From contig JANXZX010000107.1 in the NCBI GenBank assembly GCA_025355325.1, positions 1-42,178 of the forward strand: 42,178 nucleotides of DNA. Direction: 5' to 3'. The notes under the pieces were generated by a model. The model searched no databases. It worked only from the letters and a program-made list of their open reading frames with translations, and was not told where the DNA came from. The translations under genes were made by a program, and so were the position numbers. Numbering within the stretch: the stretch's first letter is position 1; every line of letters starts with the position of its first letter. Shown here piece by piece: positions 22,149 to 41,986 of the stretch. The DNA is from Geobacteraceae bacterium. Lineage in GTDB: Bacteria; Desulfobacterota; Desulfuromonadia; Geobacterales; Pseudopelobacteraceae.

Positions 22149-24884
22149 TCATATATCCCGGATAACCTCTTTAAGGGCGCTCAAACGATACGGTTTTTGA
22201 ATAAACCCGGCCAGCCCCCTGCCGATGAACTTCTGAGTCACTTCATGCTCGCTGAAACCGCTGGACATGATTACTTTGACATCCGGCTTCAATTGTCGCA
22301 GTTCGCGAAAACACTGCTCGCCGTCCATATGCGGCATGGTCAGATCGAGAATCACAAAAGCGATATCAGGGGTGCGCTTGAAGATCTCCACCGCCTCCAC
22401 GCCGTCATTTGCGGTGATGGCCGTAAAACCGAGCTCTTCGAGCATTTCAGCTCCGATGCCACGGATCGTTTCCTCGTCATCGACCAGCAGTACGGTGCCG
22501 CTCCCCTGCCAGTTGTCCTCATTTTCGTTGATATCGAACAGCTCGGCAGGACGGCTTGATGCGGGCAGCAGAACTTTGAAGGTGGTTCCCTTCTGTTCCT
22601 CGCTGTATACTTTGATCGCCCCTTTGTGCCCCCGTACTATTCCGAGTACGGCTGCCATACCAAGTCCCCTGCCGGTGAATTTAGTGGTGAAAAACGGATC
22701 GAACAGTTTAGCCAGCGTGTCCTTGCTCATGCCGCAGCCGGAGTCGGCTATTTCAAGACACACATACAGGCCGTCGGTCAGATTTTCGTCCAGCCACACA
22801 TCTTTCAGGTAGCTCTGGTCACAGTCCATGCAGCCGGTTGTGATGCCAATGACGCCGCTTCGCTCATCTATCGCCTCGGAGGCATTGATCACCAGATTCA
22901 TAATGATCTGACGCATCTGGGTCGCATCGGCTTCGACCGTGGGCAGCGGCCGATGCAGATTGAGCCGCAGCACCGCCTTCTTGGATATGGACACCTCCAG
23001 CATGTGCAGCATCTCTTCCAGCAACGTATTCAGATCAAGATTTTCGATCACGAACTTGCCTTTACCGGAATAGGCCAGCATCTGCCTGGCCAGATCGGCT
23101 GCCCGTGCCGCAGACTGTTCGATGCGGTGAAGATTTTCCACGGCGGGAGATTCCTTGTTGATCCGCATCAGTGCAAGATCGGCATTGCCGATGATGGCCA
23201 TCAGGATATTGTTGAAGTCATGGGCAATGCCGCCGGCCAGCACGCCAAGACTTTCCAGCTTCTGGGCGTGAAGAAGCTGACGCTCCAAAGCCAGACGTTC
23301 GTCTTCCAGCTTTTTCCGATCATCAATCGTTCTTGAAATGGCGATAATCCCGTTAACATGAGGATTGATGAGTTGGTTGCTGGCGGCGCATTCCATCCAT
23401 GTGTAACTTCCATCTTTGTTCTTATACCGGTATTGCACGCTATGTGGTTTCATCGGGGTATTGAGCACCTCATTAAAAGCGGCGCTCACTTGCGGCAGGT
23501 CTTCCGGATGAATAAGATCAAGCGTGTTCAGCCCCAGCATTTCTTCCTGGGAATAGCCGTGAATCTGAAGTGCCGCTGGTGAGTTATACTTTATAGAACC
23601 ATCTTCTCTGAGGATGCTGATGATATCCGGGGAAAGATCCATAATACTGCGAAAGAGTTCTTCGCTTTCCTTGATGGCATCTTCCGTGCGTTTGTGCTCG
23701 GTAATATCCAGGGTAAATCCTGCAATAAGGCTGGTTTTGCCTTCGCGTACTATCGGAAATTTTATGGTTGTGTAACTCCGACCGTTCAGTTCCTCCTCAA
23801 GCTGGACGGCTTTTCCCTCATTCACAACAGCCAGATCATCATCCGTTATCTTACGGGCAAAATCCGCCGGGAACAGCTCCTCCATTGTATGACCACGCAT
23901 TTCCGCAGCCGACTTGCCGACCATATCGATAAAATTTTCACTAACCTGGATGACCCTGCTTTGATTCCCTGATATTTCCTTGATAAAGGTATATGCCGGC
24001 GTGTACTTCATGAAGAGTGAGAACAGCTCCAACGTATCACGCAGTTCACTTTCAAGGCGCTTCCGTTCCGTAATATCGTGCCAGGTGATAACCGCTCCGA
24101 CGATGACTCCATCCTTGCGAATCGGGTAGGAGGAATATTCCACCGGGAAGTAGCTACCGTCTTGTCTCCAGAAAAATTCGTCTGTGACCGTTATGCCGTA
24201 ACCTTCCCGAAAGGCTTTGAAGATCCGGCATTCTTCCACCGGTATCGGCTCTCCGTCCGGTGTCCTGAAGTGAATCAGGTCATGCATATTGCGTCCCAGC
24301 ACCTCGCCGATATGGGCATATCCGAGTATCTTCAGGCATGATTCATTGGCAAAGGTGCAGAGCCCTTTGGTGTCGATACCGTAGATCGCCTCCACCGTCG
24401 ATGACATGATAAGTCGCAGCAGCTCTTCCCGTTCCGCCAGTTGGCGCTCGGCGGTCCGGCGCTCTTCAATCTCATTCAGCAGACTGGCCCGGAAACGGCT
24501 GAACTCCTCGGAAGCGAGCTGGTTATTGCGTTCGAGGCGTTCGTTCTCAAGGACTAGAATTGAACGGAGATCTTCGCTGCTGACATGCCGATTGAGCTGC
24601 GCCAACTGGTGCGCGGCAAAGTCAGCAAGGTAGGGGAGCATGGTCGGGGAAATTACTATCTGCAATACGAGTGGTGATATTTCAACGGAAGAAAGGTGAT
24701 CGCCCGGGATCAGAATCACCCCGGCCAACCGTTGCAAATGCTGCCCCAGAAACTCCCGGGCTACCTCCTGAGAGGGGGCAAACAGAGCAAAGGGGGCCTT
24801 GCGGAAATCCTGTGCCCGGAATTCGCGGCAAAACGTAAAACCATCGGGACAGGGAGTCGAGAGAGAGAAAAGGCGGGCTTTCAT
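22149..24884 (-). CDS. Multi-PAS hybrid histidine kinase
   Basis: A 911-residue cytoplasmic hybrid kinase. Residues 1-110 are an unassigned input region with several aromatic and cysteine residues. A coiled coil with EEFSRFRASLLNEIEERRTA leads to three PAS domains (about 150-275, 285-400 and 405-530). The HisKA helix has [20 protein letters not shown]. The ATPase domain has IMNLVINASEAIDERSG, DSGCGMSKDTLAKLFDPFFT and GRGLGMAAVLG. A C-terminal receiver contains LLVDDEETIRG and AFVILDLTMPHMDG. It starts four bases after the FIST stop, with GAGGTG as ribosome site. It may pass phosphate to the ANTAR regulator 62 bases downstream. Confidence 0.92.
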   Translation of the reverse strand: MKARLFSLSTPCPDGFTFCREFRAQDFRKAPFALFAPSQEVAREFLGQHLQRLAGVILIPGDHLSSVEISPLVLQIVISPTMLPYLADFAAHQLAQLNRHVSSEDLRSILVLENERLERNNQLASEEFSRFRASLLNEIEERRTAERQLAEREELLRLIMSSTVEAIYGIDTKGLCTFANESCLKILGYAHIGEVLGRNMHDLIHFRTPDGEPIPVEECRIFKAFREGYGITVTDEFFWRQDGSYFPVEYSSYPIRKDGVIVGAVITWHDITERKRLESELRDTLELFSLFMKYTPAYTFIKEISGNQSRVIQVSENFIDMVGKSAAEMRGHTMEELFPADFARKITDDDLAVVNEGKAVQLEEELNGRSYTTIKFPIVREGKTSLIAGFTLDITEHKRTEDAIKESEELFRSIMDLSPDIISILREDGSIKYNSPAALQIHGYSQEEMLGLNTLDLIHPEDLPQVSAAFNEVLNTPMKPHSVQYRYKNKDGSYTWMECAASNQLINPHVNGIIAISRTIDDRKKLEDERLALERQLLHAQKLESLGVLAGGIAHDFNNILMAIIGNADLALMRINKESPAVENLHRIEQSAARAADLARQMLAYSGKGKFVIENLDLNTLLEEMLHMLEVSISKKAVLRLNLHRPLPTVEADATQMRQIIMNLVINASEAIDERSGVIGITTGCMDCDQSYLKDVWLDENLTDGLYVCLEIADSGCGMSKDTLAKLFDPFFTTKFTGRGLGMAAVLGIVRGHKGAIKVYSEEQKGTTFKVLLPASSRPAELFDINENEDNWQGSGTVLLVDDEETIRGIGAEMLEELGFTAITANDGVEAVEIFKRTPDIAFVILDLTMPHMDGEQCFRELRQLKPDVKVIMSSGFSEHEVTQKFIGRGLAGFIQKPYRLSALKEVIRDI

Positions 24885-24888
24885 GACG

Positions 24889-26049
24889 TCACCTCAACAG
24901 GCAGACAACAAAGGTCATGTTGTGGAAGCTGACGGTGGTAAACGTACCGTCTCCATGACGGAAGGGACCGATTTCGCCGAAAGAGGGGAAGCCGATGAGC
25001 GGGATGTCGTGCCCCAGATATTTGAAAAAGGCGGAGAGCTCATGGTCGCCGCGGTCTGCAAGCAGCCACTTTCTGCCGGCGCAGCTGACGATGATCGCGG
25101 CAGACGGGATAAAGCCGAGCGAGTCCAGAGTCAAACCATCGAGAGCCCCCGAGACTCCACCGATGACGTCTTCGCGTGATGCGCTACAGACCCGCACCAC
25201 GGTGCCCTGTTCAACGCTGCCGAAGGTTGTCACCGCACCGCTATCGGCATGAAGCTGCGCGGGAGTTCGCAGGCTGAAGTGTTCTGTAGATCCGGCGTGA
25301 TAGACCGCCAGCGGCACGACTCCGATGTCGGATTCGCTCAATGGCTTTCCGAGTTGCCCGGCCATGAAATCCTGTGCCGGTTGTCCGCTAATGGTGCGGA
25401 TCTCGCACCCCACGTTGTCCTCAACAATGCCTTCGGTTCCTATGGGTGTCCAGCCGCTGTCAGCGTTGATAGCAAAGTCGATATCACCGCATCCGGTCAG
25501 TATGGCAACCGCATCTTCATATTCCTGCCCATTGAGGAAAACCTTGCTGCTGGTGAATTTGCGGTCGTCGCCGGTCAGACCGCCAAAAAACGGTCCGGAA
25601 ATTTCGGTCGCAATACCGTTCACTATGGCATGGCCGTCGGCTTTGGCGCCATCCGCCAGCACCATATGAAACGTGGCCGGTGCCGGGCAGGCCATAATCG
25701 CTTTGCGGGCGCATGTAGCGGCAGCCGTAAACGAGTCGGCCTGGACTCCCTGTTCCAGTGCGGCTGACCATGACACCTGTCCGTCACTGGAAATGCCGAG
25801 AGCGCACACACCATAGTTCTCGGCGCCGGATGTTTCATAAATGCCGTCACCGGTGCCGCCGAAAACGGTGACCGATTTGGTGCCGAGCGCATCATACAAC
25901 GCCTCGAAGAACTCCGAGAAATCGGGATCATATGACATGGAGGCAAACAGGAGTATAACCTCGGGGGCAATTTCTGCCAGTGCCGTACCGATTTCGAGGC
26001 CGGCCCGATACGGGTCCGTCAGAGTGCTCTTCGAAGATAGATAGCGCAT
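24889..26049 (-). CDS. FIST-domain sensory protein
   Basis: A 386-residue soluble protein with FIST_N and FIST_C regions. Family features include EVILLFASMSYDPDFSEFFE, SVTVFGGTGDGIYETSG, PFFGGLTGDDRKFTSSKVFL and, near the end, ALDGLTLDSLGFIPSAAIIV then FGEIGPFRHGDGTFTTVSFH. FIST proteins are ligand-binding signal input modules, with amino acids proposed as ligands. It has no output domain and lies between two hybrid kinases with gaps of 14 and 4 bases, so it probably modulates them. AAAGGAG stands before the ATG. Confidence 0.9.
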   Translation of the reverse strand: MRYLSSKSTLTDPYRAGLEIGTALAEIAPEVILLFASMSYDPDFSEFFEALYDALGTKSVTVFGGTGDGIYETSGAENYGVCALGISSDGQVSWSAALEQGVQADSFTAAATCARKAIMACPAPATFHMVLADGAKADGHAIVNGIATEISGPFFGGLTGDDRKFTSSKVFLNGQEYEDAVAILTGCGDIDFAINADSGWTPIGTEGIVEDNVGCEIRTISGQPAQDFMAGQLGKPLSESDIGVVPLAVYHAGSTEHFSLRTPAQLHADSGAVTTFGSVEQGTVVRVCSASREDVIGGVSGALDGLTLDSLGFIPSAAIIVSCAGRKWLLADRGDHELSAFFKYLGHDIPLIGFPSFGEIGPFRHGDGTFTTVSFHNMTFVVCLLR

Positions 26050-26063
26050 GGTGATGTACTCCT

Positions 26064-28745
26064 TTAGCCTGCTACTTTCTTTCCGATGCCGGTGCGGATT
26101 GCCGTCAGTAGATCAAGAGGTTTGAGCGGCTTCTGCAGGAACTCGACTTCAAGCCCATGTATCTCAGCCACGTCAATAATATCATCGAGATAACCGCTGA
26201 TCATGATAATCGGCAATTTCGGCAACTGCTGCCTGATCTTTTCAACTACTTCGCGGCCGTTCATGCGCGGCATGATCACGTCAACAATTGCCAGCTGAAT
26301 TTCATCCCGATGTTCGGTAAACACTTCCATGCCTTCCACCCCGTCAGCCGCCTGAAGAATGGTGTAGCCGTAGCGATCCAGCACCTCCGTATACATCTTC
26401 ATGATGGCGACGTCATCCTCGACAATAAGAATAGTTTCTGTACCGCTTGGGTTGACCGTCTCCACGGTTTCGAGCGATATTCGGGCCATATCACCGGCAT
26501 ACAACGGCAGATAGACACGGAACTCCGTACCCTTGCCCTTGGCACTGGTGACGGAGATGTGGCCATTGTGCTTCATGACGATACTGTGGACGATGGCAAG
26601 TCCCAATCCGGTGCCTTTTCCCTTTTCCTTGGTGGTAAAGAACGGGTCGAAAATGTGCTCGATTGTTTCCTCACTCATGCCGCTGCCGTTGTCGCTGATA
26701 CTCAGGCAGGCGTAGTCACCCGGCGGAACGAATATATTCCCCTCGCGGCGTGCTTCTTCATATTGTGCCATCTGCGCCGACACAGTGATAGTCCCCCCCG
26801 CCTCAAGGGCGTCACGGGCGTTGATAACAAGATTTATCAGCACCTGTTCAATCTGCACCCGATCTGCATATATCGGCAGGCGATTTTCGTTGGGGATTAT
26901 GTCCAGCGTGATATCTTCGCGAATCAGGCGCTTCAGGCTCTTACGCAGGGGGGTGCATATCTGGTTCAGATCATCGTACTGCTTTTGCATTTCCTGCTTA
27001 CCGCTGAAGGAGAGCAGGCTGCGGGTCATTTCAGCGGCCCGGTCCACCGAGTACGTAATTTCCTGAGCATACCCGAGATTTTCCTCGTCGGCGGCGAGAG
27101 TGGTCTGCAAAAGGTTGGCATAACCGTTGATGACGGTGAGGATGTTGTTGAAATCGTGAGCAATGCCCCCGGCAAGAACGCCGACCGATTCCATTTTCTG
27201 GGCCTGGAGAAGTTGTGCCCCGAGAGAAACCCGCTCGGAAACATCTGACAGCGTCTGAATAGCAGCTATGACCGCGCCATCGCGGTCGCGAATAGGCGCA
27301 GCAGAGAATACCAGGCGACATTGATGACCGCCGAGGCAATAGTCACCTTCGGCGGACAGGCCGTCTGGAAGCAGTACGGAACGGGAAATTATGGTGTAGA
27401 GCTTCCGGGCCTGTTCAGCACTCCCGTCCAGAACAATGTCTGCCAGGCATGGCCGGACATCCGGATAAAAGGCGCGCCACTGCTCATTGGTGCCGACAAC
27501 TTCCTGCGCCTTGATGCCGGTCAGTTCCTCAAGGGCGCGGTTCCAGATCAGTACCTGATGGTCGAAGTTTATAACAAAAGTGGGGGTCGTGGAGTTCAGG
27601 ATTAGATTTTCGGCAAAGTCCATCTTGTCGCGTAGTTCCTTTTCTGCCGCCAGTCGATCGGAAATATCAAATACAATGGATTGCAGTACGGTATGCCCCT
27701 GAAAATCAATGGGATTACTAAACACCTCCACAGCCCTGATTGTGCCATCAACCAGGCGGTGCTGTGCCACAAACTGCCCTCTGATGCCGTCCCGCACCTC
27801 GGAAATGCACGTGGCCAGCTCGTCAGGCGTACTGGTATTGATGTCGGAAATATTTCGAGTCATAAGGGTATCGCAGGCATATCCGTAAAATGAGCATGCG
27901 GCAGGGTTGGCGTCGATGATGGCGCCGTTTTCCGGGTCTATAATCAGCATGGCTGCCTGACACTGCCGGAACTGCTGCCGGTAGCGCTCCTCGCTATCGC
28001 TGAGGGCGCGTGCTCCCCTGCCGATAATGCGGGTACTGAGCCAGATGCCGGACAGACCCAGACACCAGACAAAACCGACAATAAGTACGTGCTTAACGTT
28101 GCTGAAGTGCATGAGGGAGTCCAACTGGGTAACCGGTACGGATACGCTGATGCCGCCGCGCACATCGCCTTCGCGATAGCCCTGGATGGCGTGGCACTTG
28201 AGGCAGGGCTGCTCCGTTTTCAGAACGTGCATGAAGCGGAAATTGCGCACGCCGTCGATTTCCTGATACTCGCTGAACTCCGGAGTTCCCCCGCCAATAA
28301 TCTCCAGGGCTTTCCGCTCCCAGGCATCCGGAGCGTTTTCCGGACGGATCGGGTTAAGGCTTGTGATGTGGCCTTGCGGCGAATCAGGCGCCGAACGCAT
28401 TAATTCGTAAACCTGCCGGGTCATGTAGGCAGGGTTCATCAGAGTCAGTTTTCTGCCGGATGGAGTCTCAATATCGCGTTCCGGAACATTCAGGTGGGGG
28501 TTTGGCGGAGTTTCGGCGGTGGCCGGTACATACGCGCCGCCATGTTTCGCAGCCCAGCGGCGAAACGCGAGATCCTTCTGATAACTGGCGCGGCAGATCG
28601 CCAGGGCATTTGCGGCTTCAAAGTCATAATTATCGACTATTTCCCAGGCCAATACCGTAATGGCGGCAATAGTCCAACCAAGCGCCGCTGCGATTGATAT
28701 GTACCGAAGTGATTTTCGTGTTTTCAGAAGCGTACTGTTCTGCAT
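26064..28745 (-). CDS. Hybrid histidine kinase with haem-binding (CxxCH) sensor domain
   Basis: An 893-residue hybrid kinase. TM1 is at about 15-36. The periplasmic domain (about 40-210) matches DUF3365/Tll0287-like sensors, with [20 protein letters not shown] and the c-type haem motif CLKCH at 181-185. TM2 follows at about 219-240. Two PAS domains come next (about 250-365 and 370-500). The kinase core has [56 protein letters not shown] and [18 protein letters not shown]. The C-terminal receiver has [12 protein letters not shown] and [12 protein letters not shown]. It is the first gene of the four-gene operon. A redox or gas signal sensed by haem is likely. Confidence 0.93.
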
Positions 28746-32146: not shown

Positions 32147-33001
32147 CTACAGAACAATCTCCATCTCATCAGCAACCGCAAAGCATTGTACTCCGCTCCC
32201 TGATTTTTGGATTCTCTGCCGACAAGTTTCCACATGTAGCTCCAGCTCCTCATCAGTACGATCAGGATCATGATGAAAAATGCCGAAACTCTTTACGTTG
32301 GCTGCAATAGCAAGGTCAGTAGCATCGGCATACGTTGAGTGACCCCATCCACGGGTATACCGGTATTCGTCATCAGTATATTGGGAATCGTGGATAAGGA
32401 GGTCAGCATCTTGAACGGTTTTTGCGAAATAGTCTCTGTCGGGACCGTTCGGATGGGCAAATCCAAGTTCATTGTCGGGAAAGAAGAAAAAAGTTTTGCC
32501 GTTTTCCGAGAACCGGTAACCGAAACCGCCATTGGGGTGGTTGATCGGGATTGCGCGCACTTCAATGCCGTCGCAGATGCAATTCCGGTTTTCCTGACAG
32601 GGGTTGTCACAGTGGAAGTTCATTTTAGCCTGAAGCTGAGACAGATCAACGGGGAAATAGGGAGCCTGCATCTGGTGTGAGAGATATTGCCTTATTGAGT
32701 CCTGGGCATGAGGGCCACTACAGAATGTCAAAGAATATTTGTTTGAATATGCCGGTTGAAAAAAAGGAAAACCGAGCAGATGATCCCAGTGCGAATGTGT
32801 AAAGTAGAACCGGACGCTGGTTACATCCTTTTCTTTGACAAGTGATTTGCCAAGCTTGTGAAGCCCTGAACCGGCATCAATAATAATAACCCCGCCAGTA
32901 TCAGGCCTGACCTCTACGCACGTTGTATTGCCGCCATAGCGTGACATTTTCACACCCGGCGCAGGAAGTGAACCACGACAGCCCCATATCTTGATTTTCA
33001 T
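32147..33001 (-). CDS. MBL-fold metallo-hydrolase
   Basis: A 284-residue protein starting MKIKIWGCRGSLPAPGVKMS, with GGNTTCVEV, the IIIDAGSGLHKLG strand, the metal motif FYFTHSHWDHLLGFPFFQPA, then IHDSQY, GWGHSTYADA and FHHDP. This subgroup is related to cyclic phosphate/phosphonate phosphodiesterases (PhnP-like) and is often annotated as a cAMP-phosphodiesterase-like MBL protein. A cysteine-rich stretch, CDNPCQENRNCIC, is an oddity. GGGAGGA precedes the ATG. It follows the sigma-54 activator by 15 bases and shares its promoter. A second MBL-fold gene is convergent with it. Confidence 0.85.
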   Translation of the reverse strand: MKIKIWGCRGSLPAPGVKMSRYGGNTTCVEVRPDTGGVIIIDAGSGLHKLGKSLVKEKDVTSVRFYFTHSHWDHLLGFPFFQPAYSNKYSLTFCSGPHAQDSIRQYLSHQMQAPYFPVDLSQLQAKMNFHCDNPCQENRNCICDGIEVRAIPINHPNGGFGYRFSENGKTFFFFPDNELGFAHPNGPDRDYFAKTVQDADLLIHDSQYTDDEYRYTRGWGHSTYADATDLAIAANVKSFGIFHHDPDRTDEELELHVETCRQRIQKSGSGVQCFAVADEMEIVL

Positions 33002-33016: not shown

Positions 33017-35830
33017 TCAGAGCTTCACTGTCTTGTACAAGAAGTTCTTGAACCGGAACAACTGCCGTTGTTCCTCATCCCTTTCCTGCCCACCGCTGAG
33101 GGCCTTAAGATAGCGCGCCACCGCCGGCATGGTTTTACCCGCCTTTGCCCGTGCTTTTTCAATTATCAACCGCACCGTTTCACGCGAAATGTCGTTACGT
33201 GTGAACGGATCATAAATATCTGTCCAGAAATTTCCCCCGGCGATAATTTTGGTAATAATCTCTCCGGCGACCTGCTCATCAAGATTATTCAGGGTTGTTG
33301 GCCTGGAAGGTGACTCCAGATTGCTGGTTCCGGCTATCGCTTCACTGATCGAATCACCGGTTATGGCCCCCTTTTGCCTGAAAAACAGCGCTCGTAGCAA
33401 TATGCTGCGCAGCTCACGGATGTTGCCCTTGTAATTGTGGCGCATGAGAATATCTTTGGCATCCTTGGTCAGGTACGGCGGCGTTTCACCCGTGTCAGTC
33501 TCGGCACGGTAAGTACGATAGAGTTTCCCCAGAAAATGTACCGAGAGGTCGGGAATATCTGCACGGCGTTCGTTAAGTGACGGCAGGCGAATCGAAAGCT
33601 CTGAAAGCCTGTGGTAGAGGTCCTCGCGGAACCGCCCGGCCTCAATCTCGTCGGCGAGATTCTTGTTGGTTGCTGCAACCAGCAGCACCCTGCTGTACCG
33701 CTCGGCATTTTCACCGAGCCGCATGAAACCGCCGTTATCCAGGAAACGGAGGAGCTGCACCTGGGTCTTGGGATCGGCATCGCCGATTTCATCCAGAAAG
33801 ACAATACCGCCGATATTCTCCTCCAGAATCCCGCGCCGGTCGGTATACGCCCCGGTAAACGCCCCCTTCTTGTGACCGAACAGTTCCGAATAGGTCAGCT
33901 CACCCGAGTATGCGGCTATGTTTGTTTTCTTGACCGGCAATTCTCCGGTGGGGTTAATGTCGCGGCGGTACAGTTCATTGAGTTTATTGTAGAGGTTGTT
34001 GAAAAAGAATTCCTTGCCGGAGCCGGTCTGGCCGGTTACCAGAATTGACGGAAGCCCGATGGTCGCCTCCTGAAGGATATTGCGTGACCAATAGACAATG
34101 CGGTTAAAGAGCGGCGGCGAGACGGTGTTGATGAAATCGACAATCTCCTGTGACTTCTGGCTGTTGCCGATGATGTTGCCAAGCCGGTACGAGGAAACGT
34201 GCGGATCCTTGTAGGCAACATCTGTTGTCAGTCGGCTGACTTCGCCTTGCAGGCGCTCAATGCGCTGCAGATCGGATATGTGTCGCGCCGTCAGGGAGCC
34301 GACGATTTGAAGGATCCGGCGATGCTCTTCACGGAAATAGTCGTACTGGAGCGAGTTGAGGCAGATGACGGCAATGACCTCGTCATCACAGATGATCGGC
34401 ACCGCAATCTCGCTCTTCAAAAGAGCGCTCATGGAGCGATGGAAGCCGCTTCCATGCAGTTCCGCCTCGACCCGGGCGGTAATTTTCGGTTTCTTGGTGA
34501 ATGCGACATATCCTGTCAGACTTCGCTCCTCCCGAGGCAGCTCGTTACCGCCAACCACGAGCGGCGGGATATACTTTTTCAGCCACTCCTTATTCTTGGC
34601 TCCGATGATGGCACCACTTTCATCCTCCACCACCAGCCATTTCTTGCCGTCCCGTTCGATGACCACTGCGATACTGCCGGTATCGGCGCCGATCAGTTCC
34701 GTCGCCTTGGAAAGAACCCTGGTTAAAAACGGTTGCAGGCTCTCGGTCCGCTCATTCAAAAGATCACTGATTTCCGAGAGCACCCGGATTTCCAGATGTT
34801 CTCCGCCAACTTCGCTGATGACTTTCTCGACCATTTCGGCATGGGTCTGCAGCAGTCCCATTTCAAAATCACTGAACTGATACAGATCACGGGTATAGTA
34901 ATTGAGGAGACATATTATGCGCCGGGTATCCGGGTTGAATCGAGGAACCACGTAGAGCGACCGGAGTTCGAGCGATTCGGTCAAGGCGCGCTTTTGCAGG
35001 TTGTGCTGGGTCAGATCGGAAATATACAGCGGCTTATGCAGAAGCTCATCGGTAATTATGCCCTGATCGTTGATATAGTTGGAAATCAGCGACATCCCTT
35101 TTCGAAGATCCAATGCTCCTAACTGGTCATACTTTTTCTTGAGATTTTCATCTTCAGAATAGCTGGCAAGGTTTTCCAGAATACCGGTGCTGCCTTCCTG
35201 ATGAGTCGGCACCAGCACTGCTGCCAGAGAAACTTTCTCAATGAGTCTGACCGCCGACTGCACCATCATTCCGGCAGCTTCGCGCGCTTTGAACTCCTCC
35301 AGACGCCGGGCCAGGCGGATCTGCTGGTGATAGATTCTGGCCTGGTCAAGTGGATCGGCAATCATGTCGGACAAATCCGCCAGTTGCACTTTTGCACGGT
35401 TGTTCAGCACTTCGCCGGGATGATCCTGGTCGATGCAGAGGACTCCGATGGATTTTCCGAGGCTGACTACCGGCATGACATAGCTGGAGTTGAACTTGAA
35501 GCGGGCGGCATATTCGTGATCAAGGGAGTTTTTTTCAGTACGGGAGACTTTAAAATCAAGCGGCTGCTGATTGACAAAAACGCGGGAAACGATCGCTTCA
35601 TTCGAGACTATCGGAAATGTTGATTCAACAAGTTCTTTTCCGAGCGGCCCGGTAGCATGGACACAGGTAAGAGTTCCCTGCGTCAGGTCTTCCAGATATA
35701 TGCGAACCTGTTCACAGGCCGCTATTTTTTTGGAGCTTTCCGCCAGGGCATACAGCAGTTCCCCGAGATTTTCCTTGCCATAGGCGGCAATTGAGGTCTG
35801 GAAAGCTTTGAATAAAGATGGAATCGGCAT
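33017..35830 (-). CDS. GAF-domain sigma-54 transcription activator
   Basis: A 937-residue activator. Two GAF-type sensory regions fill about the first 540 residues (ILCLNY, AVICLNSLQYDYFREEHRRI). The AAA+ domain has Walker A VTGQTGSGKE (about 597-606), the sigma-54-contacting GAFTGA in HKKGAFTGAYTDRRG (about 656), Walker B GGIVFLDEIGDAD and the arginine finger RFREDLYHRL. The C-terminal part is helical and should bind DNA but is not a standard Fis HTH. The frame is open 20 codons further, but the promoter at 35897-35925 would start RNA there. GGGAG precedes the ATG at 35830. It is co-transcribed with the MBL hydrolase gene. Confidence 0.92.
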   Translation of the reverse strand: MPIPSLFKAFQTSIAAYGKENLGELLYALAESSKKIAACEQVRIYLEDLTQGTLTCVHATGPLGKELVESTFPIVSNEAIVSRVFVNQQPLDFKVSRTEKNSLDHEYAARFKFNSSYVMPVVSLGKSIGVLCIDQDHPGEVLNNRAKVQLADLSDMIADPLDQARIYHQQIRLARRLEEFKAREAAGMMVQSAVRLIEKVSLAAVLVPTHQEGSTGILENLASYSEDENLKKKYDQLGALDLRKGMSLISNYINDQGIITDELLHKPLYISDLTQHNLQKRALTESLELRSLYVVPRFNPDTRRIICLLNYYTRDLYQFSDFEMGLLQTHAEMVEKVISEVGGEHLEIRVLSEISDLLNERTESLQPFLTRVLSKATELIGADTGSIAVVIERDGKKWLVVEDESGAIIGAKNKEWLKKYIPPLVVGGNELPREERSLTGYVAFTKKPKITARVEAELHGSGFHRSMSALLKSEIAVPIICDDEVIAVICLNSLQYDYFREEHRRILQIVGSLTARHISDLQRIERLQGEVSRLTTDVAYKDPHVSSYRLGNIIGNSQKSQEIVDFINTVSPPLFNRIVYWSRNILQEATIGLPSILVTGQTGSGKEFFFNNLYNKLNELYRRDINPTGELPVKKTNIAAYSGELTYSELFGHKKGAFTGAYTDRRGILEENIGGIVFLDEIGDADPKTQVQLLRFLDNGGFMRLGENAERYSRVLLVAATNKNLADEIEAGRFREDLYHRLSELSIRLPSLNERRADIPDLSVHFLGKLYRTYRAETDTGETPPYLTKDAKDILMRHNYKGNIRELRSILLRALFFRQKGAITGDSISEAIAGTSNLESPSRPTTLNNLDEQVAGEIITKIIAGGNFWTDIYDPFTRNDISRETVRLIIEKARAKAGKTMPAVARYLKALSGGQERDEEQRQLFRFKNFLYKTVKL

Positions 35831-35893
35831 GATGCTCCCTGTGGCTGCGTACCGGCAACGAAAGAACTCGTGTGAGTACAAAATCCACACAGC

Positions 35894-35932
35894 CGGACTG
35901 TAGCGCGGGAGACATGTCAGGTCAAGACTGAA
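35894..35932 (-). promoter_or_regulatory. Conserved 39-bp promoter block, copy 1 (sigma-54 activator operon)
   Basis: On the minus strand TTGACC (35920-35925) and TACAGT (35897-35902) are 17 bases apart. The spacer TGACATGTCTCCCGCGC, the left flank and the right flank TCCG are the same as in copy 2 at 40611-40649, except for two transitions. The predicted start is near 35889, so the activator is translated from 35830. Confidence 0.8.
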
Positions 35933-35992
35933 AATGTCGTGAGGTAAATAACGTCTAGCCCCGGGGACTTACCCGCCTATTTTCATTTAAAC

Positions 35993-38143
35993 CTACAGCT
36001 TACCGATAAATGCCCCGATCTCCGCATGAACCTTTTCAGAACCCTCTCCGGCAAGTATCCCATGCCGGTCAAAGTCGAACGGTACATATTGTTTCTCTTT
36101 CGCTCCGATGCGATTGTACAGGAGTGCCGTCCCCTCTGAATTGACCACCGGATCGCCGTGAGCCTGCACGATGAGGGTCGGGGTCGTCACGTGGGCCAGC
36201 TTCGGTTCAAGATCCTTCATGAAACGCTCCAGCGCCGACAGCGCTGCCAGCGGAACGCGGGTATAGTTGATTGATGGCCGTTCCGGGATGATATCAAAAT
36301 ACTCTTTTGTCGCTCCGTGACAATGTATCGCATCCATCATCTTGTTCCAGGTCGTAACAACGGATGCAAATCGCGTTGAGATGTCCTGGAGGCGGAAGGG
36401 TGGTGAAATCGCAAAGACTCCGGCCAGGCCGGAAATCCGCGCGGCGGCGTCCAGCGCCAGTCCTCCCCCCAATGAAAAGCCTCCGACCACCACCCGCGAG
36501 CATAAGGCGCTCATCATGGCATAGCCGGTATCGACTGATTCAATCCAGTCACTTCCGCTGCGTGTGGCAAGATCTTCAGGCGAAGTCCCATGTCCGCGGA
36601 GGCGGACGCAATAGACCCAATATCCTTTGCTGTGCAGGTAAGACGCAAGTTCAAGCATTTCCCGGGGAGCCGCAATAAAGCCATGCACGAGCACGACACC
36701 CACGCGCCGCGACGTCCCCTTCAGCAGGATTGGAGCGCCGACAGTGCGCTCTTTGGATTCGCCGATGCGATGAAAGAGTGCATAGTCCGCTTCAAACTGA
36801 TCTGACGCCTGACGCAGGAGAACATCAGCGACCCGATGCCGAACCAGCATTTTCGGCAGCCACGCCATCCAGCGCACCTGACGGAGAAGCTTTGAGAGCG
36901 GCCTTACTTCGTTTGCCACGACTCCAAGCGGATTTTCGATCCGTACCCGGTGGAATTCGGATTTCGCCGACAAGTTGGCTGAAATTCTGAGCAGCATCCC
37001 GTTCTCGCGGCGGACCACCCCCGTTTCCCTGGCCAGCTCCAGAAAGTCGCGGTACTTGTGATACCGGTCATCCGTCAGCAGGGCAACCTGCCCGATCTTG
37101 AGGCTCTGGTGGCAATAGACGAACGTTTTGTCGGGAACCAGATCGGTCAGCAAAAAAACGCGCCTCCGGAAGTCGATTTCCGATATTTCACTGGAAGGGA
37201 GCAGATTCAGCAGCGATGCGAAAAGGTGATCGTGGTTAACAGTGGTCATGCTATAGATGTCGGCCATGAAGCGGTGCATCAGGGTTGCCGCTTTCTGACG
37301 CATTACCTGTAGGGATGGCAGATGATCGTCAAAATTTATCTGCCGACGGGCAAATATATCCTGCGTGATTTTGGGGTCGGCAAGCGATTCCGATACCGGG
37401 ATTGCCGCACCAAAACGGATGTCAATATCAACGCCCTCGAAAAACATGCTCCCTTCAGTCAACAACTCTTCACGCAGTCGTTCGGACATGTTGCGCGCGA
37501 AACGGTCCGCCAGAGTGCTGAGAACGTTCTCCCGTGCCCGCAGAGGGTAATAGGTCAGGTTGATCGGAACTATCCAAGTCGTTTCTGTCAGAATGGGCAT
37601 CATATTTTCAATCTGAAACATGTTCATCAGGCGTTCCGCTTCTGCGGGGTCTTCAGTGAGCAGGTGATTCAGCCGTTTACGGTAGAACTCGGTGCGGAGC
37701 GCCAGATTAGCAGCGCCCGTATGTGCGGCGCGACGTCCGCCGCGGTGCAGGCCGAAGAAGGAGGGTCTGCTGACCTCTTCCTTGTCCTTGACCATCTGCC
37801 CTTCGGGAAAAATTATCCAATTCGCTTCACCGGTAAGAAGGCCTTTAACGATCAGGTGGTCGCGATCAGGATTTCTGGTGGAGACCGCCCCGACCTTTTC
37901 GAGGAAGCCGCTCATGGGCCCTTCAAAGAAGGAGTGATCGGCCAGTGACCAGACAGGGACATGGGTAAGGTTGTAAATATGATAGGGAAGCAGAAGTGTT
38001 TCGATGCGGGTGAAATGGTTTACGACAAATATGACCGAACCGCTTGGAATCTGCTCCTGGCCGTGGGTTACTACCTTGATTTTTGAAAAACTCTGCATGA
38101 GCGTAATCATGCTGCCTGTGGCAAGGTATGCGGAATATTTCAT
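35993..38143 (-). CDS. Acyltransferase - alpha/beta hydrolase fusion protein
   Basis: A 716-residue two-domain protein. The N-terminal domain resembles PlsC-type glycerolipid acyltransferases: IFVVNHFTRIETLLLP (H43, with E48 in place of the usual Asp of H-x4-D), GAVSTRNPDRDH and NWIIFPEGQM. A middle region of about 300 residues is unassigned. The C-terminal domain (about 470-716) is a monoglyceride-lipase-like hydrolase with VVLVHGFIAAPREM, VRLRGHGTSP, the nucleophile elbow GGFSLGGGLA (Ser near 554), an Asp in QAHGDPVVN and the His in DRHGIL. AGGGAAGGAAC stands before the ATG at 38143, which overlaps the glpD stop. It probably remodels acyl chains. Confidence 0.87.
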   Translation of the reverse strand: MKYSAYLATGSMITLMQSFSKIKVVTHGQEQIPSGSVIFVVNHFTRIETLLLPYHIYNLTHVPVWSLADHSFFEGPMSGFLEKVGAVSTRNPDRDHLIVKGLLTGEANWIIFPEGQMVKDKEEVSRPSFFGLHRGGRRAAHTGAANLALRTEFYRKRLNHLLTEDPAEAERLMNMFQIENMMPILTETTWIVPINLTYYPLRARENVLSTLADRFARNMSERLREELLTEGSMFFEGVDIDIRFGAAIPVSESLADPKITQDIFARRQINFDDHLPSLQVMRQKAATLMHRFMADIYSMTTVNHDHLFASLLNLLPSSEISEIDFRRRVFLLTDLVPDKTFVYCHQSLKIGQVALLTDDRYHKYRDFLELARETGVVRRENGMLLRISANLSAKSEFHRVRIENPLGVVANEVRPLSKLLRQVRWMAWLPKMLVRHRVADVLLRQASDQFEADYALFHRIGESKERTVGAPILLKGTSRRVGVVLVHGFIAAPREMLELASYLHSKGYWVYCVRLRGHGTSPEDLATRSGSDWIESVDTGYAMMSALCSRVVVGGFSLGGGLALDAAARISGLAGVFAISPPFRLQDISTRFASVVTTWNKMMDAIHCHGATKEYFDIIPERPSINYTRVPLAALSALERFMKDLEPKLAHVTTPTLIVQAHGDPVVNSEGTALLYNRIGAKEKQYVPFDFDRHGILAGEGSEKVHAEIGAFIGKL

Positions 38144-39732
38144 GATTGTTCCTTCCCTCGTAACCATTCAGGCAGAAAAAGGTGCCGGGCGGTTTCGTTA
38201 AACCTTTCCAGTTGCTGACTCTGCCAAGCCTGATCGCGCCCGAGTTCGGCTGCCATCAGACCAGCCACGCGCGGAGCGATATCACGGCTTGCAGCGGCAT
38301 CCAGAAAAAGGGCGCGGGTGCGGCGGGCAAGCACGTCTTCCACGCTCCGGGCCCATTCGAAACGCACGGCCCAGATGACATCCCCGACCGTATAGGGAAG
38401 GCGCGGATGCAACTGCTCACGGCCTACGGGATGGGCGTCAGCCATCTGCTCGAACAGCCCTCTGTCCGAGCCATAGTTGATGTATGGTCCCGGCGAGGAT
38501 GACGACGGCTCCCACCCATGCAGACGGAGTGAACGGGTAGTCGATGACTGCGGACGAAGCCCCCCTTGTGCGGCGGCAGTGTCAACAGCGGCGACGCCCA
38601 TACTGCGATAGGTAGTCCATTTGCCGCCGGTTATGGTGACAAGGCCGGAAGCAGAAACCGAAAGCAGACGTTCGCGGCTCATTTCCGCAGTACTTTGTCC
38701 GCTCTTTCCCCCGGTTAACGGCCTGATCCCGGTAAATGTACTGAGAACATCGGAGCGAGCCGGTTGGCGTTCAAGGCAGCGTCCCGCATGTGCCAGCAGA
38801 AAATCGATCTCATCCTGCAATGGCACCGCGCCGGTGGTGCCGCTGTCAAGAGGCGTATCAGTGGTGCCGACAATGACGTGATCATACCACGGAATCGCGA
38901 AAAAGACCCTGCCATCATCGCTGCGTGGAATCATAACGGCGCAGTCGCCGGGCAGGAAGGAACGGTCAAGGACCAGATGCGCCCCCTGACTCGGGGTAAT
39001 GAGAGGAGAACAGGCCGGATCGTCCATGCGCCGCACCTGATCGCACATTACACCGGTTGCATTGATGACTGCCCGTGCCGACAGGATATATTCCCGGCCG
39101 CTTTCACGATCAATGGTTGTCACAATTCTCATCCGCCCCGACTCAGCGGCAAGGGCGCTGACATTCATATAGCTGAGCGGAGTCCCACCCAGATCGGCAA
39201 AGGTGCGCGCAAGGCAGACAGCCATGCGGGCGTCGTCAAACTGGCCGTCGTGATAGACGATGCCGCCGCGAAGGTTCCGGCGCTTGACGGTCGGAGTCAG
39301 AGCTATCGTCTCTTCCCGGCTGAGATGGCGGGAGGGCTTCAGCCCATGGGTCCCCGAGAGCAGATCGTACAAGGCCATACCGATGCCGTAAAAAGGGCGC
39401 TCCCACCAGCGGTAAAGAGGGATGACAAAGGGGAGGTCATGTACCAGATGGGGAGCATTCTTCAGCAGGATGTGCCGTTCATGCAGCGCCTCACGGACAA
39501 GAGCCAGATTGCCCTGCTGCAGGTAGCGCACACCGCCGTGAACAAGTTTTGTACTGCAGCTTGACGTCCCGCAGGCAAAGTCACCCTGCTCCAGCAGCAG
39601 GGTGCGGTAGCCCCGGCTGACCGCATCGACGGCCGCCCCCAGTCCGGTGGCGCCGCCGCCGATTACGATGATATCCCATGGCCCGGAATTGTCGTCCAGT
39701 CTGCGCAGCAGCTCTTCCCGCGACGGATTCAT
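38140..39732 (-). CDS. glpD: Glycerol-3-phosphate dehydrogenase (FAD-dependent)
   Basis: A 530-residue flavoenzyme that oxidises glycerol 3-phosphate to dihydroxyacetone phosphate at the inner membrane. The N terminus has the FAD-binding DIIVIGGGATGLGAAVDAVS. The family block GTSSCSTKLVHGGVRYLQQG follows, and later FTGIRPLTGG and TITGGKWTTYRSMG are present. The C-terminal DAO_C part has VRFEWARSVEDVLARRTRAL. AGGAG lies 11 bases before the ATG at 39732; a TTG at 39741 is too close to it. It is five bases behind the GDPD gene and overlaps the fusion gene (ATGA), so it is the middle member of a glycerolipid operon. Confidence 0.95.
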   Translation of the reverse strand: MNPSREELLRRLDDNSGPWDIIVIGGGATGLGAAVDAVSRGYRTLLLEQGDFACGTSSCSTKLVHGGVRYLQQGNLALVREALHERHILLKNAPHLVHDLPFVIPLYRWWERPFYGIGMALYDLLSGTHGLKPSRHLSREETIALTPTVKRRNLRGGIVYHDGQFDDARMAVCLARTFADLGGTPLSYMNVSALAAESGRMRIVTTIDRESGREYILSARAVINATGVMCDQVRRMDDPACSPLITPSQGAHLVLDRSFLPGDCAVMIPRSDDGRVFFAIPWYDHVIVGTTDTPLDSGTTGAVPLQDEIDFLLAHAGRCLERQPARSDVLSTFTGIRPLTGGKSGQSTAEMSRERLLSVSASGLVTITGGKWTTYRSMGVAAVDTAAAQGGLRPQSSTTRSLRLHGWEPSSSSPGPYINYGSDRGLFEQMADAHPVGREQLHPRLPYTVGDVIWAVRFEWARSVEDVLARRTRALFLDAAASRDIAPRVAGLMAAELGRDQAWQSQQLERFNETARHLFLPEWLRGKEQS

Positions 39733-39737
39733 GGCAA

Positions 39738-40511
39738 TCAAGGCTCCTGCAGCCGTGTGCGCAGCCAGCCGGGGCGATTGGTCATGATCGAGTCAACACC
39801 CATTGTACGCAGATGCTGTGCCTCGGATAACCGGTCTACGGTCCAGACATGTATCTCCTTGCCGAGCTCTTTAAGCGTATCAACCAGTTCCTGATCGAGG
39901 AACACCCGGTTGGCGCTGGCCAGTCCGTCGGCGCCGGAACTGAGAAGCGTATTGAGAACGTCAGCGCGTGAGGGGAACCAGGCATCGTTGCGCACAAAGT
40001 GGCGGTAATCACAGAGCCAGCAGGCACGCCATTCCGGAAGCCGCTGTTTAAATTCCTTGATCAGCGGTGCGCTGAATGACAGCAATCTGACCCGTTCCGG
40101 AGCGATGTCTGAAACCTGCAGCGCCTTTTCCAGCGGTGTAATGATTTCCGGTCCGCTCTTGATTTCGATAAAAAACCACGTGCCGCGCGGTACTTCGGCA
40201 AGCACTTCGTCAAGTGTCGGCATCGTTGTTCCGGACCAGACCGCCCCCTTCCGGTATCCCGCGTCCAGTCGGCGCAATTCCTCCAGCCTGGTGTCTGAAA
40301 TTCTCACGTCAGCGCCGGTTGTCCGTCCGGTCGTATCATCATGCATACAGACAATACGGCCATCGGCAGTGAGACGGAAATCAGCCTCTATGCCGTCAGC
40401 CCCCTGTTCCCAGGCGAGCCGGAATGATGCCAGGGTATTTTCCGGCGCATCCCGGGAAGCGCCGCGGTGACCGATTATTAGCGGCGGATTGTGCATAGAA
40501 TCAGTATTCAT
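39738..40511 (-). CDS. Glycerophosphodiester phosphodiesterase
   Basis: A 257-residue cytoplasmic enzyme (no signal peptide) that splits glycerophosphodiesters into glycerol 3-phosphate and an alcohol. The GDPD motifs are complete: LIIGHRGASRDAPENTLASF, GADGIEADFRLTADGRIVCM with HDD, WFFIEIKSG, and near the end VWTVDRLSEAQHLRTMGVDS then IMTNRP. It is the UgpQ type by length. It heads the operon and supplies the substrate of the following GlpD. The ribosome site is weak. Transcription should start near 40606 from the conserved promoter block. Confidence 0.94.
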   Translation of the reverse strand: MNTDSMHNPPLIIGHRGASRDAPENTLASFRLAWEQGADGIEADFRLTADGRIVCMHDDTTGRTTGADVRISDTRLEELRRLDAGYRKGAVWSGTTMPTLDEVLAEVPRGTWFFIEIKSGPEIITPLEKALQVSDIAPERVRLLSFSAPLIKEFKQRLPEWRACWLCDYRHFVRNDAWFPSRADVLNTLLSSGADGLASANRVFLDQELVDTLKELGKEIHVWTVDRLSEAQHLRTMGVDSIMTNRPGWLRTRLQEP

Positions 40512-40610
40512 GGCTGCAGATCCGTACCTTTTTGTAAGTTGCTGATGTTTTGGATGTGTAGCGACCGGATGAGGCTAACATGCTGGCCATGGGGAGGTTC
40601 CGGGATTTCG

Positions 40611-40649
40611 CGGACTGTAGCGCGGGAGGCATGTCAGGTCAAGGCTGAA
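40611..40649 (-). promoter_or_regulatory. Conserved 39-bp promoter block, copy 2 (glycerolipid operon)
   Basis: TTGACC (40637-40642) and TACAGT (40614-40619) on the minus strand, 17 bases apart. The block matches copy 1 at 35894-35932 at 37 of 39 positions, including the whole spacer apart from one base. The two sequences diverge outside the block. Confidence 0.8.
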
Positions 40650-40934
40650 TATGATGTGATGTGAACAGGAGCAGAAATCCTTAGCCAGACCACAAATACG
40701 GTTGGCCAATCCGGGCACTGCCCTCAAAACTTGTCGGCAAAGCTCTCTTACCTGCTTCCTTTGCGGGCGGGATACTGACGTCCAAGCACACCTTCGCGCT
40801 TGTCTCCAGCCATTTCAACGTCGGTGATCGTGTCGGTATCGTCACCGTTGACACTCACACTAGTCTTTAATCAAGCCTCACGTGGTGCACTTACAATGTG
40901 AATTCACCTGTCCCTAGCTTCCCCCGGCATAAAG
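40650..40934. other. Gap with possible gene remnant
   Basis: No supported gene. On the minus strand, from about 40860 down to 40750, a short frame reads SVNGDDTDTITDVEMAGDKR then EGVLGRQYPARKGSR before TAA. It has coding-like composition but no start or ribosome site, so it may be the tail of a decayed gene. This stretch lies between the glycerolipid promoter and the mobile mystery pair. Confidence 0.25.
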
Positions 40935-41519
40935 TTACGACCGAACAAACCCCCGTAACGGTTCATAATCTTGACGGTCAGCGGAACGAAGCGCATTGAT
41001 ATTGTGCAATCGACAATCACCGACATTGACCAGATTGCCGCTGCCCCATGTGAAGGGTTTCCGGTTCAGGAGATGAACAAGAACAATGTCGGTCATCAAC
41101 CGGACATGGCGACCGTTACCGTTGGGGAATGGATGAATCGCCGTAAGTCGGTGATGGAAGCGCACACCAATTTCATCCGGTGAAAAAGTGTTGTGCTCGA
41201 TCCAGACCGCGCAATCTGCACACATATTTCGTAATTCAATAGCGATCTGCCAGGCGGGGACGCCGATGTTCTTACCGGTGGATCGGAAATTTCCTGCCCA
41301 TCGCCAGACGTTGCCGAACATTTTTTTATGCAGCCGCTTGATATACGTTTCTGTTAGCACATCTTTCTGCTTCCGCCTGAAGACAGCTGCTTCGGCCTCG
41401 GCAATATTTTCCTGTTCCCAGCGGTCCAGTTCCGAACGATTCGTGATATGGGTGAGCAACAATCCAGCCGCTTCGTCGGCATCAAGCGGAGTTGCGCCTT
41501 CCGGATAATCAAAATTCAT
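40935..41519 (-). CDS. Mobile mystery protein B (Fic domain)
   Basis: A 194-residue Fic-fold protein of the mobile mystery B family. The Fic motif at 129-140 reads HPFPNGNGRHVR. The usual acidic residue after HPFx is N133, while the His and the GNGR anion-binding loop are kept. The N-terminal part contains GATPLDADEAAGLLLTHITN. Fic enzymes usually transfer AMP to proteins; with Asn at the metal site the chemistry may differ. The ATG at 41519 overlaps the stop of gene A (ATGA). The pair probably behaves as a toxin-antitoxin unit; this is inference. Confidence 0.88.
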   Translation of the reverse strand: MNFDYPEGATPLDADEAAGLLLTHITNRSELDRWEQENIAEAEAAVFRRKQKDVLTETYIKRLHKKMFGNVWRWAGNFRSTGKNIGVPAWQIAIELRNMCADCAVWIEHNTFSPDEIGVRFHHRLTAIHPFPNGNGRHVRLMTDIVLVHLLNRKPFTWGSGNLVNVGDCRLHNINALRSADRQDYEPLRGFVRS

Positions 41520-41986
41520 GATTTCACACTCCAAAGGTCTTTTGGCATCTCCCGCATAAGTTCATCTATCATTAATTGCAGCATTTTCTGACGTTCCGGC
41601 TTTTGAAGCTGCTGATCTTCAAGTATCATCGTGTGGGTCGTGCGCTTCATCCGTTCGATGGCTATCTGCCGTACTTGCTCTCTAATGGTATTCTCCAGTG
41701 TAGAGCGTGGCACTAACGCATAGACAAATACGCAGTCAAGGGCTTCGGCAGCCTGTCGCATGGTCTTTATCGATACAGCGCCGGCTACTTCGTCTTTTTC
41801 CAATATTGGGATGCGAGGCTGTCGGACGCTCAGACGCTCCGCCAACTGCTTTCCGGTCATTCCCAATGCCTCACGGATAGCGCGAATCCACCCTTTTGGC
41901 GGTGGAGAAACGTCTTGTACATTTTTGAAGCGGGAAAGTGTCTTGTCCAGTTGCTCGACAATTATCCTTTTATGAGCTGGCTTCAT
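41516..41986 (-). CDS. Mobile mystery protein A (XRE regulator)
   Basis: A 156-residue protein. The helix-turn-helix reads IREALGMTGKQLAERLSVRQ with PRIPILEKDEVAGAVSIKTM. The family continuation is AAEALDCVFVYALVPRSTLE. The C-terminal part (MKRTTHTMILEDQQLQKPER, then LIDELMREMPKDLW-like) is helical. It is the upstream member of the A/B pair, translationally coupled to the Fic gene, and probably represses the pair and neutralises the Fic protein. AGAGGT precedes the ATG. Confidence 0.9.
   Translation of the reverse strand: MKPAHKRIIVEQLDKTLSRFKNVQDVSPPPKGWIRAIREALGMTGKQLAERLSVRQPRIPILEKDEVAGAVSIKTMRQAAEALDCVFVYALVPRSTLENTIREQVRQIAIERMKRTTHTMILEDQQLQKPERQKMLQLMIDELMREMPKDLWSVKS

Follow-up and report, generated by a model that had tools for sequence, protein, structure and literature searches.

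Two near-identical promoter blocks in a Geobacteraceae genome probably reflect duplication of a regulator's core promoter in front of a glycerolipid operon

Repressor operators that overlap the start sites of sigma-70 promoters are a known type of control element. Promoter capture by duplication is likewise a known kind of event, with citT in Lenski's E. coli lines (PMC4718724) as an example. For the GPMC system, neither the phrase itself nor the name TIGR04442 occurs in any paper of the open-access literature that we searched, where a search on autoregulation also found nothing. Here we analyzed a window of 42,178 nt, one contig (JANXZX010000107.1) of the draft assembly GCA_025355325.1 from a Geobacteraceae bacterium (Pseudopelobacteraceae), in which a 39-bp block stands before the gene for a GPMC system transcriptional regulator (copy 1, 35894-35932) and again, on the same minus strand, before an operon encoding a glycerophosphodiester phosphodiesterase (GDPD), a GlpD-like dehydrogenase and an acyltransferase/hydrolase (copy 2, 40611-40649). 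The block is probably the core sigma-70-type promoter of the regulator, duplicated in this lineage in front of the GDPD operon in a case of promoter capture, and the duplication is best read as recent. This interpretation draws on comparison: the block has two copies only, both oriented toward genes; its -35 and -10 are conserved at the regulator; it is absent at the GDPD operon of relatives; the copies share rare bases; and the neighborhoods of both operons are broken.

The two copies agree at 37 of 39 bases by direct reading and by repeat search, with the common minus-strand sequence TTCAG[T/C]CTTGACCTGACATG[T/C]CTCCCGCGCTACAGTCCG. The likeness extends upstream over a further 16 bases, 11 of them shared (48/55 overall), and then fades, while on the downstream gene side it ends abruptly; a sequence-only reading of this DNA, which had reported the 37/39 match and held that the copies diverge at once, was therefore right about the gene side only. 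Among all same-strand 39-mer pairs in the window seeded by shared 9-mers this pair ranked first, with five block-shuffled windows reaching only 26-28/39 at best, and a 38-letter pattern of the block at up to three mismatches matched just these two places and none in 100 dinucleotide shuffles. The earlier reading had asked for a genome-wide search that might reveal many copies without downstream genes; BLAST and pattern searches of the bacterium's own draft genome (4.17 Mb, 241 contigs) found no third copy, and with two copies only a dispersed repeat is ruled out.

Both copies are promoter-like, as had also been proposed, and resemble a sigma-70-type promoter (defined here as -35 and -10 elements at 16-18 nt with at least 9 of 12 consensus bases), with TTGACC and TACAGT at 17-nt spacing matching at 9/12, and each is oriented toward genes and precedes a gene start. 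The same 5.3 kb holds eight other promoter-like sites (shuffle mean, 2.6), so a consensus match by itself is weak evidence. Each copy would start transcription ~7 nt past its -10, and the expected leaders are ~60 and ~95 nt; leader RNA structure is modest for the regulator (z -1.98) and none was seen for GDPD (z 0.49). That copy 2, or the operon join, is a chimera of the draft assembly is extremely unlikely: the contig does end in sequence that recurs, 92% identical, on another contig (C188), but the two blocks differ, they have no exact run longer than 18 bases in common and over 1.5 kb separates copy 2 from the contig end. An 18-base run is short against usual assembly word sizes, which makes misassembly at the block unlikely.

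Comparison with relatives separated the promoter elements from the remainder of the block. All 39 genomes of the genus (own included) gave a match in the regulator search, with only partial, ~44% identical matches in G010 and G026 (76% and 66% complete, respectively) and a fragment in G038. The genus regulator promoter reads CTTGACC, 11 mostly variable bases, then CCRCGC TACATT. Across the 26 genus relatives whose promoters share this spacing (three others in the genus, with an 18-nt spacer, were left out), information content per position was 1.93 bits in the -35, 1.92 in the -10, 1.38 in the hexamer before the -10, 1.16 in the 5' flank and 0.67 in the spacer. Most of the spacer identity between the two copies is thus not kept by selection at the orthologous promoter, and the proposal that spacer and flanks are as conserved as the -35 and -10 does not hold among relatives. 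Over 36 positions the copies show 2 differences, compared with at least 5 between copy 2 and any of the 26 relatives and at least 7 for copy 1; the two are therefore nearer to each other than to the relatives' orthologous promoter, as expected of promoter capture. They also have three rare bases in common: an A and a G in the 5' flank (0/26 relatives) and a G in the -10 (1/26).

Sites of the regulator promoter type with at most one mismatch numbered 27 across the 39 genus genomes, 26 of them at regulators and one at the GDPD operon studied here; at two mismatches there were 11 (5 at regulators, 6 elsewhere), and nine genomes had no regulator-type promoter site. This distribution bears on the idea that a dedicated alternative sigma factor reads a CTTGACC-N11-CCRCGCTACAKT core and that the element marks its regulon. 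Such a factor would fit the unusually conserved bases just upstream of the -10, but it is highly unlikely given that own-genome sites at up to three mismatches are limited to these two and that the closest genus matches lie at regulators and copy 2 only; with no further sites at the stringency used, we rejected an alternative-sigma regulon. When 76 family genomes were searched with the pattern at up to three mismatches, the sole hits besides our two copies were the regulator promoters of G011 and of G031. No second copy of the block was found in the other genomes of the genus and family sets, in which the nearest full-length regulators are only ~85% identical. One relative bin (G002) holds two GPMC regulator copies with promoters, on contigs C19 and C66; the C66 match has in-frame stops, and the second copy is possibly bin contamination.

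The GDPD operon gave a different picture. Of the 39 genus genomes, 22 contained a GDPD match, from which we took 15 orthologues with upstream DNA (L038-L052; 57-72% identity), excluding one with its start cut off (L053), four that are 36% identical (L054-L057) and two fragments (L058 and L059). The block was absent before all 15, the best match in up to 400 upstream bases being 17-23/39, when chance places at our own locus reach 20/39; nor did it occur anywhere on either strand in 14 of these neighborhoods (best, 24/39). Instead, simple open reading frame calling placed a 132-amino-acid MerR-like gene upstream of GDPD, in divergent orientation, in at least 10 of these 14, the MerR assignment being Pfam-confirmed for one relative gene and for the orthologue in our genome. 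That orthologue (83%) sits on contig C11, with no GDPD within the 16 kb fetched around it. In all 14 fetched neighborhoods the acyltransferase-alpha/beta hydrolase fusion adjoins GDPD, and in six GlpD lies between the two.

A broader comparison of regulator loci used a scan of the genome collection, in which 80 of the 159 related loci were kept; they come from Geobacteraceae/Desulfuromonadaceae records as well as from named genera, among them Geomonas, Oryzomonas, Pelotalea and Geotalea. Flanks of ~8 kb on both sides were available for 49, and at least 5 kb upstream in 66 and downstream in 58; absence of a neighbor is less firm for 31 of the 80 loci. None of these loci contained a match to GDPD, GlpD or the acyltransferase, nor to the MBL-fold hydrolase gene downstream of our regulator, which the sequence-only reading had counted as a regulon member. 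The GPMC MBL model (NF038231; cutoff, 360 bits) was likewise not among the NCBIfam hits of that hydrolase.

These comparisons make it unlikely that the two operons form a regulon in which a DNA-binding regulator reads the spacer and flanks of the block and co-controls the GPMC regulator/MBL and GDPD genes in this lineage. Such control would account for an identity that extends through an otherwise variable spacer and for a core that has diverged less (2/39) than the adjacent 16 bases (5/16; Fisher p 0.018), but retention of two functional promoters would lead to low core divergence just as well. Moreover, searches of the genome found no third site, most of the spacer varies at the orthologous promoter in relatives, none of the 15 GDPD orthologues has the block where a regulon would place it, and the element that relatives do conserve, a dyad, falls outside the block. 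The earlier proposal of one regulon thus loses its support in relatives, although both operons may be co-expressed in this one genome.

Comparison instead places the probable site of control just downstream of the block, a few bases away. Just past the -10 of copy 1 is an operator-like dyad, TGTGTGGATTTTGTACTCA, 19 bp long with an A+T-rich center, that follows the consensus TGWGTA-N7-TACWCA. In 67 of 68 fitted promoters the dyad lies 2-8 bases past the -10, and in one it lies 11 bases past, in a fit that is biased by having chosen promoters using the dyad (17 entries, duplicates included, were dropped). When promoters were picked without regard to the dyad, it was present with at most one mismatch in 58 of 74 (own included) and with at most two in 66 of 74, compared with 0/74 for the reversed pattern at up to two mismatches and 0.03% of shuffled leaders at up to one. 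The dyad overlaps the expected transcription start, where a repressor operator would sit, and is a candidate operator; CACGAGT right after our own dyad may be a further half-site.

Exact dyads numbered 32 in 25 of the 39 genus genomes, 23 at the regulator promoter (23 genomes) and nine elsewhere, the latter including both exact sites of our own genome. Because the nine do not exceed the 13 sites of the reversed control, we rejected the dyad as a genome-wide operator and regard it as nearly confined to the regulator promoter; upstream of 49 GPMC-MBL-cluster genes it did no better than the reversed control. After the -10 of copy 2, all tested offsets gave at least seven mismatches, and the best match anywhere in the GDPD upstream region (40512-40934) had four. 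The GDPD operon probably gained the core promoter without the dyad, and what the two operons have in common would be a core promoter and not a shared operator, contrary to the proposal of a common repressor or activator bound in the block. We tentatively suggest, at somewhat less than even confidence, that the dyad is a dedicated single-site operator at the regulator's start across related Geobacterales genera, serving autoregulation or an unknown dedicated repressor (perhaps together with a GWGT half-site), and that the GDPD operon studied here is under the captured core promoter without that operator and so uncoupled.

Under promoter capture, the core promoter of the regulator would have been duplicated such that one copy came to precede the GDPD-GlpD-acyltransferase/hydrolase operon, which relatives carry at another place and with other upstream DNA, in most cases including the divergent MerR gene. 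The operon would then be expressed from the captured promoter and, as the TGWGTA-N7-TACWCA dyad was not copied, would escape dyad-mediated control of the regulator. As to the order of events, the operon may have been inserted where the site was duplicated, or the regulator may have been relocated, and the duplication itself may be an integration scar or a tandem duplication.

The arrangement of the genome is consistent with such rearrangement. Of the 80 loci, 57 have a TIGR04442-cluster gene upstream of the regulator, 51 have an MBL-cluster gene there, 45 have both and 19 have a FlgM-cluster gene (cluster family names were checked on L102, L073 and our own genes). In our genome the GPMC MBL (405.9 bits, NF038231) and TIGR04442 (1003.7 bits) genes sit on C188 and not with the regulator, together with a FlgM-like gene (35.5 bits, below its 40.75 cutoff), in the order MBL, TIGR04442, FlgM, group II intron, HTH and Fic, the contig ending inside Fic. 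The minus-strand order in the window is HTH, Fic, copy 2, GDPD, GlpD, acyltransferase, copy 1, regulator and MBL, and the HTH-Fic stretches at the two contig ends (40935-41986 and L155:1-740) are 92% identical over 743 columns, possibly as a mobile or repeated toxin-antitoxin-like module. The usual neighborhoods of both the regulator and the GDPD operon are thus interrupted or broken. Separately, the group II intron match (RF00029, 45.7 bits; L155:823-896) lies on C188 where many relatives carry the GPMC regulator.

An integration scar, in which the ~4.7-kb GDPD-GlpD-acyltransferase segment was inserted with a ~39-55-bp duplication of its target, the regulator promoter, is a possible if rather doubtful mechanism and is compatible with promoter capture. 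Direct repeats bound the segment (start-to-start distance, 4717), both usual neighborhoods are interrupted, and on C188 the GPMC genes are followed by a group II intron and another HTH-Fic pair. However, Pfam searches of the three genes between the repeats (GDPD, GlpD-like and acyltransferase/hydrolase) revealed no recombinase, and the copied segment coincides with an entire core promoter, which duplication of an arbitrary target need not produce.

Several observations weigh against promoter capture or the role given to the dyad. Ten of the 11 spacer positions are identical between the copies, which fits a lineage-specific constraint by a shared factor, and 3 of 325 relative-relative promoter pairs are likewise within two differences, so that distance cannot by itself serve as a clock. 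The copied segment has no sharp upstream boundary, the unduplicated state was not seen in any close sister genome, and use of copy 2 is predicted from its sequence. Most relatives' own promoters exceed the three-mismatch limit of the 76-genome search, so that diverged duplications there could escape. When promoters were chosen blind to the dyad, none could be recognized in 10 of the 84 unique upstream regions; 8 of 74 promoters have at least three dyad mismatches, two of them (L100 and L116) without a gene start, and the dyad of our own regulator carries one mismatch. The draft assembly to which this single contig belongs has a 3.32% contamination estimate, and C188 may be joined to the window through HTH-Fic.

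The genes around the two copies are listed with the promoter features in Table 1. The regulator scores 1554.8 bits against NF038230 (cutoff, 1200; scanned from 35890) and so belongs to that family; its longest open reading frame begins at 35890, and the likely start is the ATG at 35830 behind AGGGAG. We found no support for FgrM as the identity of this GAF protein, which NCBIfam assigns to the other family. The GlpD-like protein matches NCBIfam GlpD models below cutoff. Elsewhere on the minus strand (22149-28745), two PAS-rich hybrid histidine kinases lie on either side of a FIST-domain protein.

Table 1 Promoter features and neighboring genes in the window
Feature	Coordinates	Strand	Remarks
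Block copy 1, GPMC regulator core promoter (putative)	35894..35932	-	-35 TTGACC 35925-35920; -10 TACAGT 35902-35897; spacer 17
Block copy 2, probable duplicate core promoter before GDPD-GlpD-acyltransferase operon	40611..40649	-	-35 40642-40637; -10 40619-40614
Weakly alike upstream extension, copy 1	35933..35948	-	11/16 bases as in 40650-40665
Weakly alike upstream extension, copy 2	40650..40665	-	Counterpart of 35933-35948
Operator-like dyad	35873..35891	-	TGWGTA-N7-TACWCA, 1 mismatch; just downstream of copy 1 -10 only
GPMC system transcriptional regulator	33017..35830	-	GAF domains and sigma-54 AAA+ domain (Pfam GAF, Sigma54_activat); NCBIfam NF038230
MBL-fold hydrolase	32147..33001	-	15 bp downstream of regulator; not GPMC MBL family
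GDPD (glycerophosphodiester phosphodiesterase)	39738..40511	-	First gene behind copy 2; Pfam PF03009
GlpD-like FAD-dependent glycerol-3-phosphate dehydrogenase	38140..39741	-	4-bp overlap with GDPD; Pfam DAO/DAO_C
Acyltransferase and alpha/beta hydrolase fusion	35993..38167	-	28-bp overlap with GlpD; PF01553 and PF12146; ends 60 bp before copy 1
HTH_3-Fic gene pair	40935..41986	-	Upstream of copy 2; second, 92% identical stretch at end of contig C188

Near-identical promoters in one genome are easily mistaken for a regulon, and here relatives favor a copied promoter. If the dyad is indeed an operator, a glycerolipid remodeling operon would run on an uncoupled version of the regulator's promoter. 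The conserved dyad offers a direct handle on the uncharacterized GPMC regulator.

Set beside known systems, the first gene behind copy 1 scores as a member of the GPMC regulator family, but in our genome it sits on another contig than the GPMC MBL and TIGR04442 genes. The dyad resembles start-site-overlapping operators in lying just past the -10 with an A+T-rich center, and differs from them in being a candidate site that is nearly confined to one promoter. The closest parallel to the event itself is that of citT, in which a duplicated promoter was newly placed before a gene that it did not formerly drive. That case was followed in an evolution experiment, whereas ours is reconstructed from comparison, and here only ~39-55 bp would have been copied, with the donor gene still adjacent.

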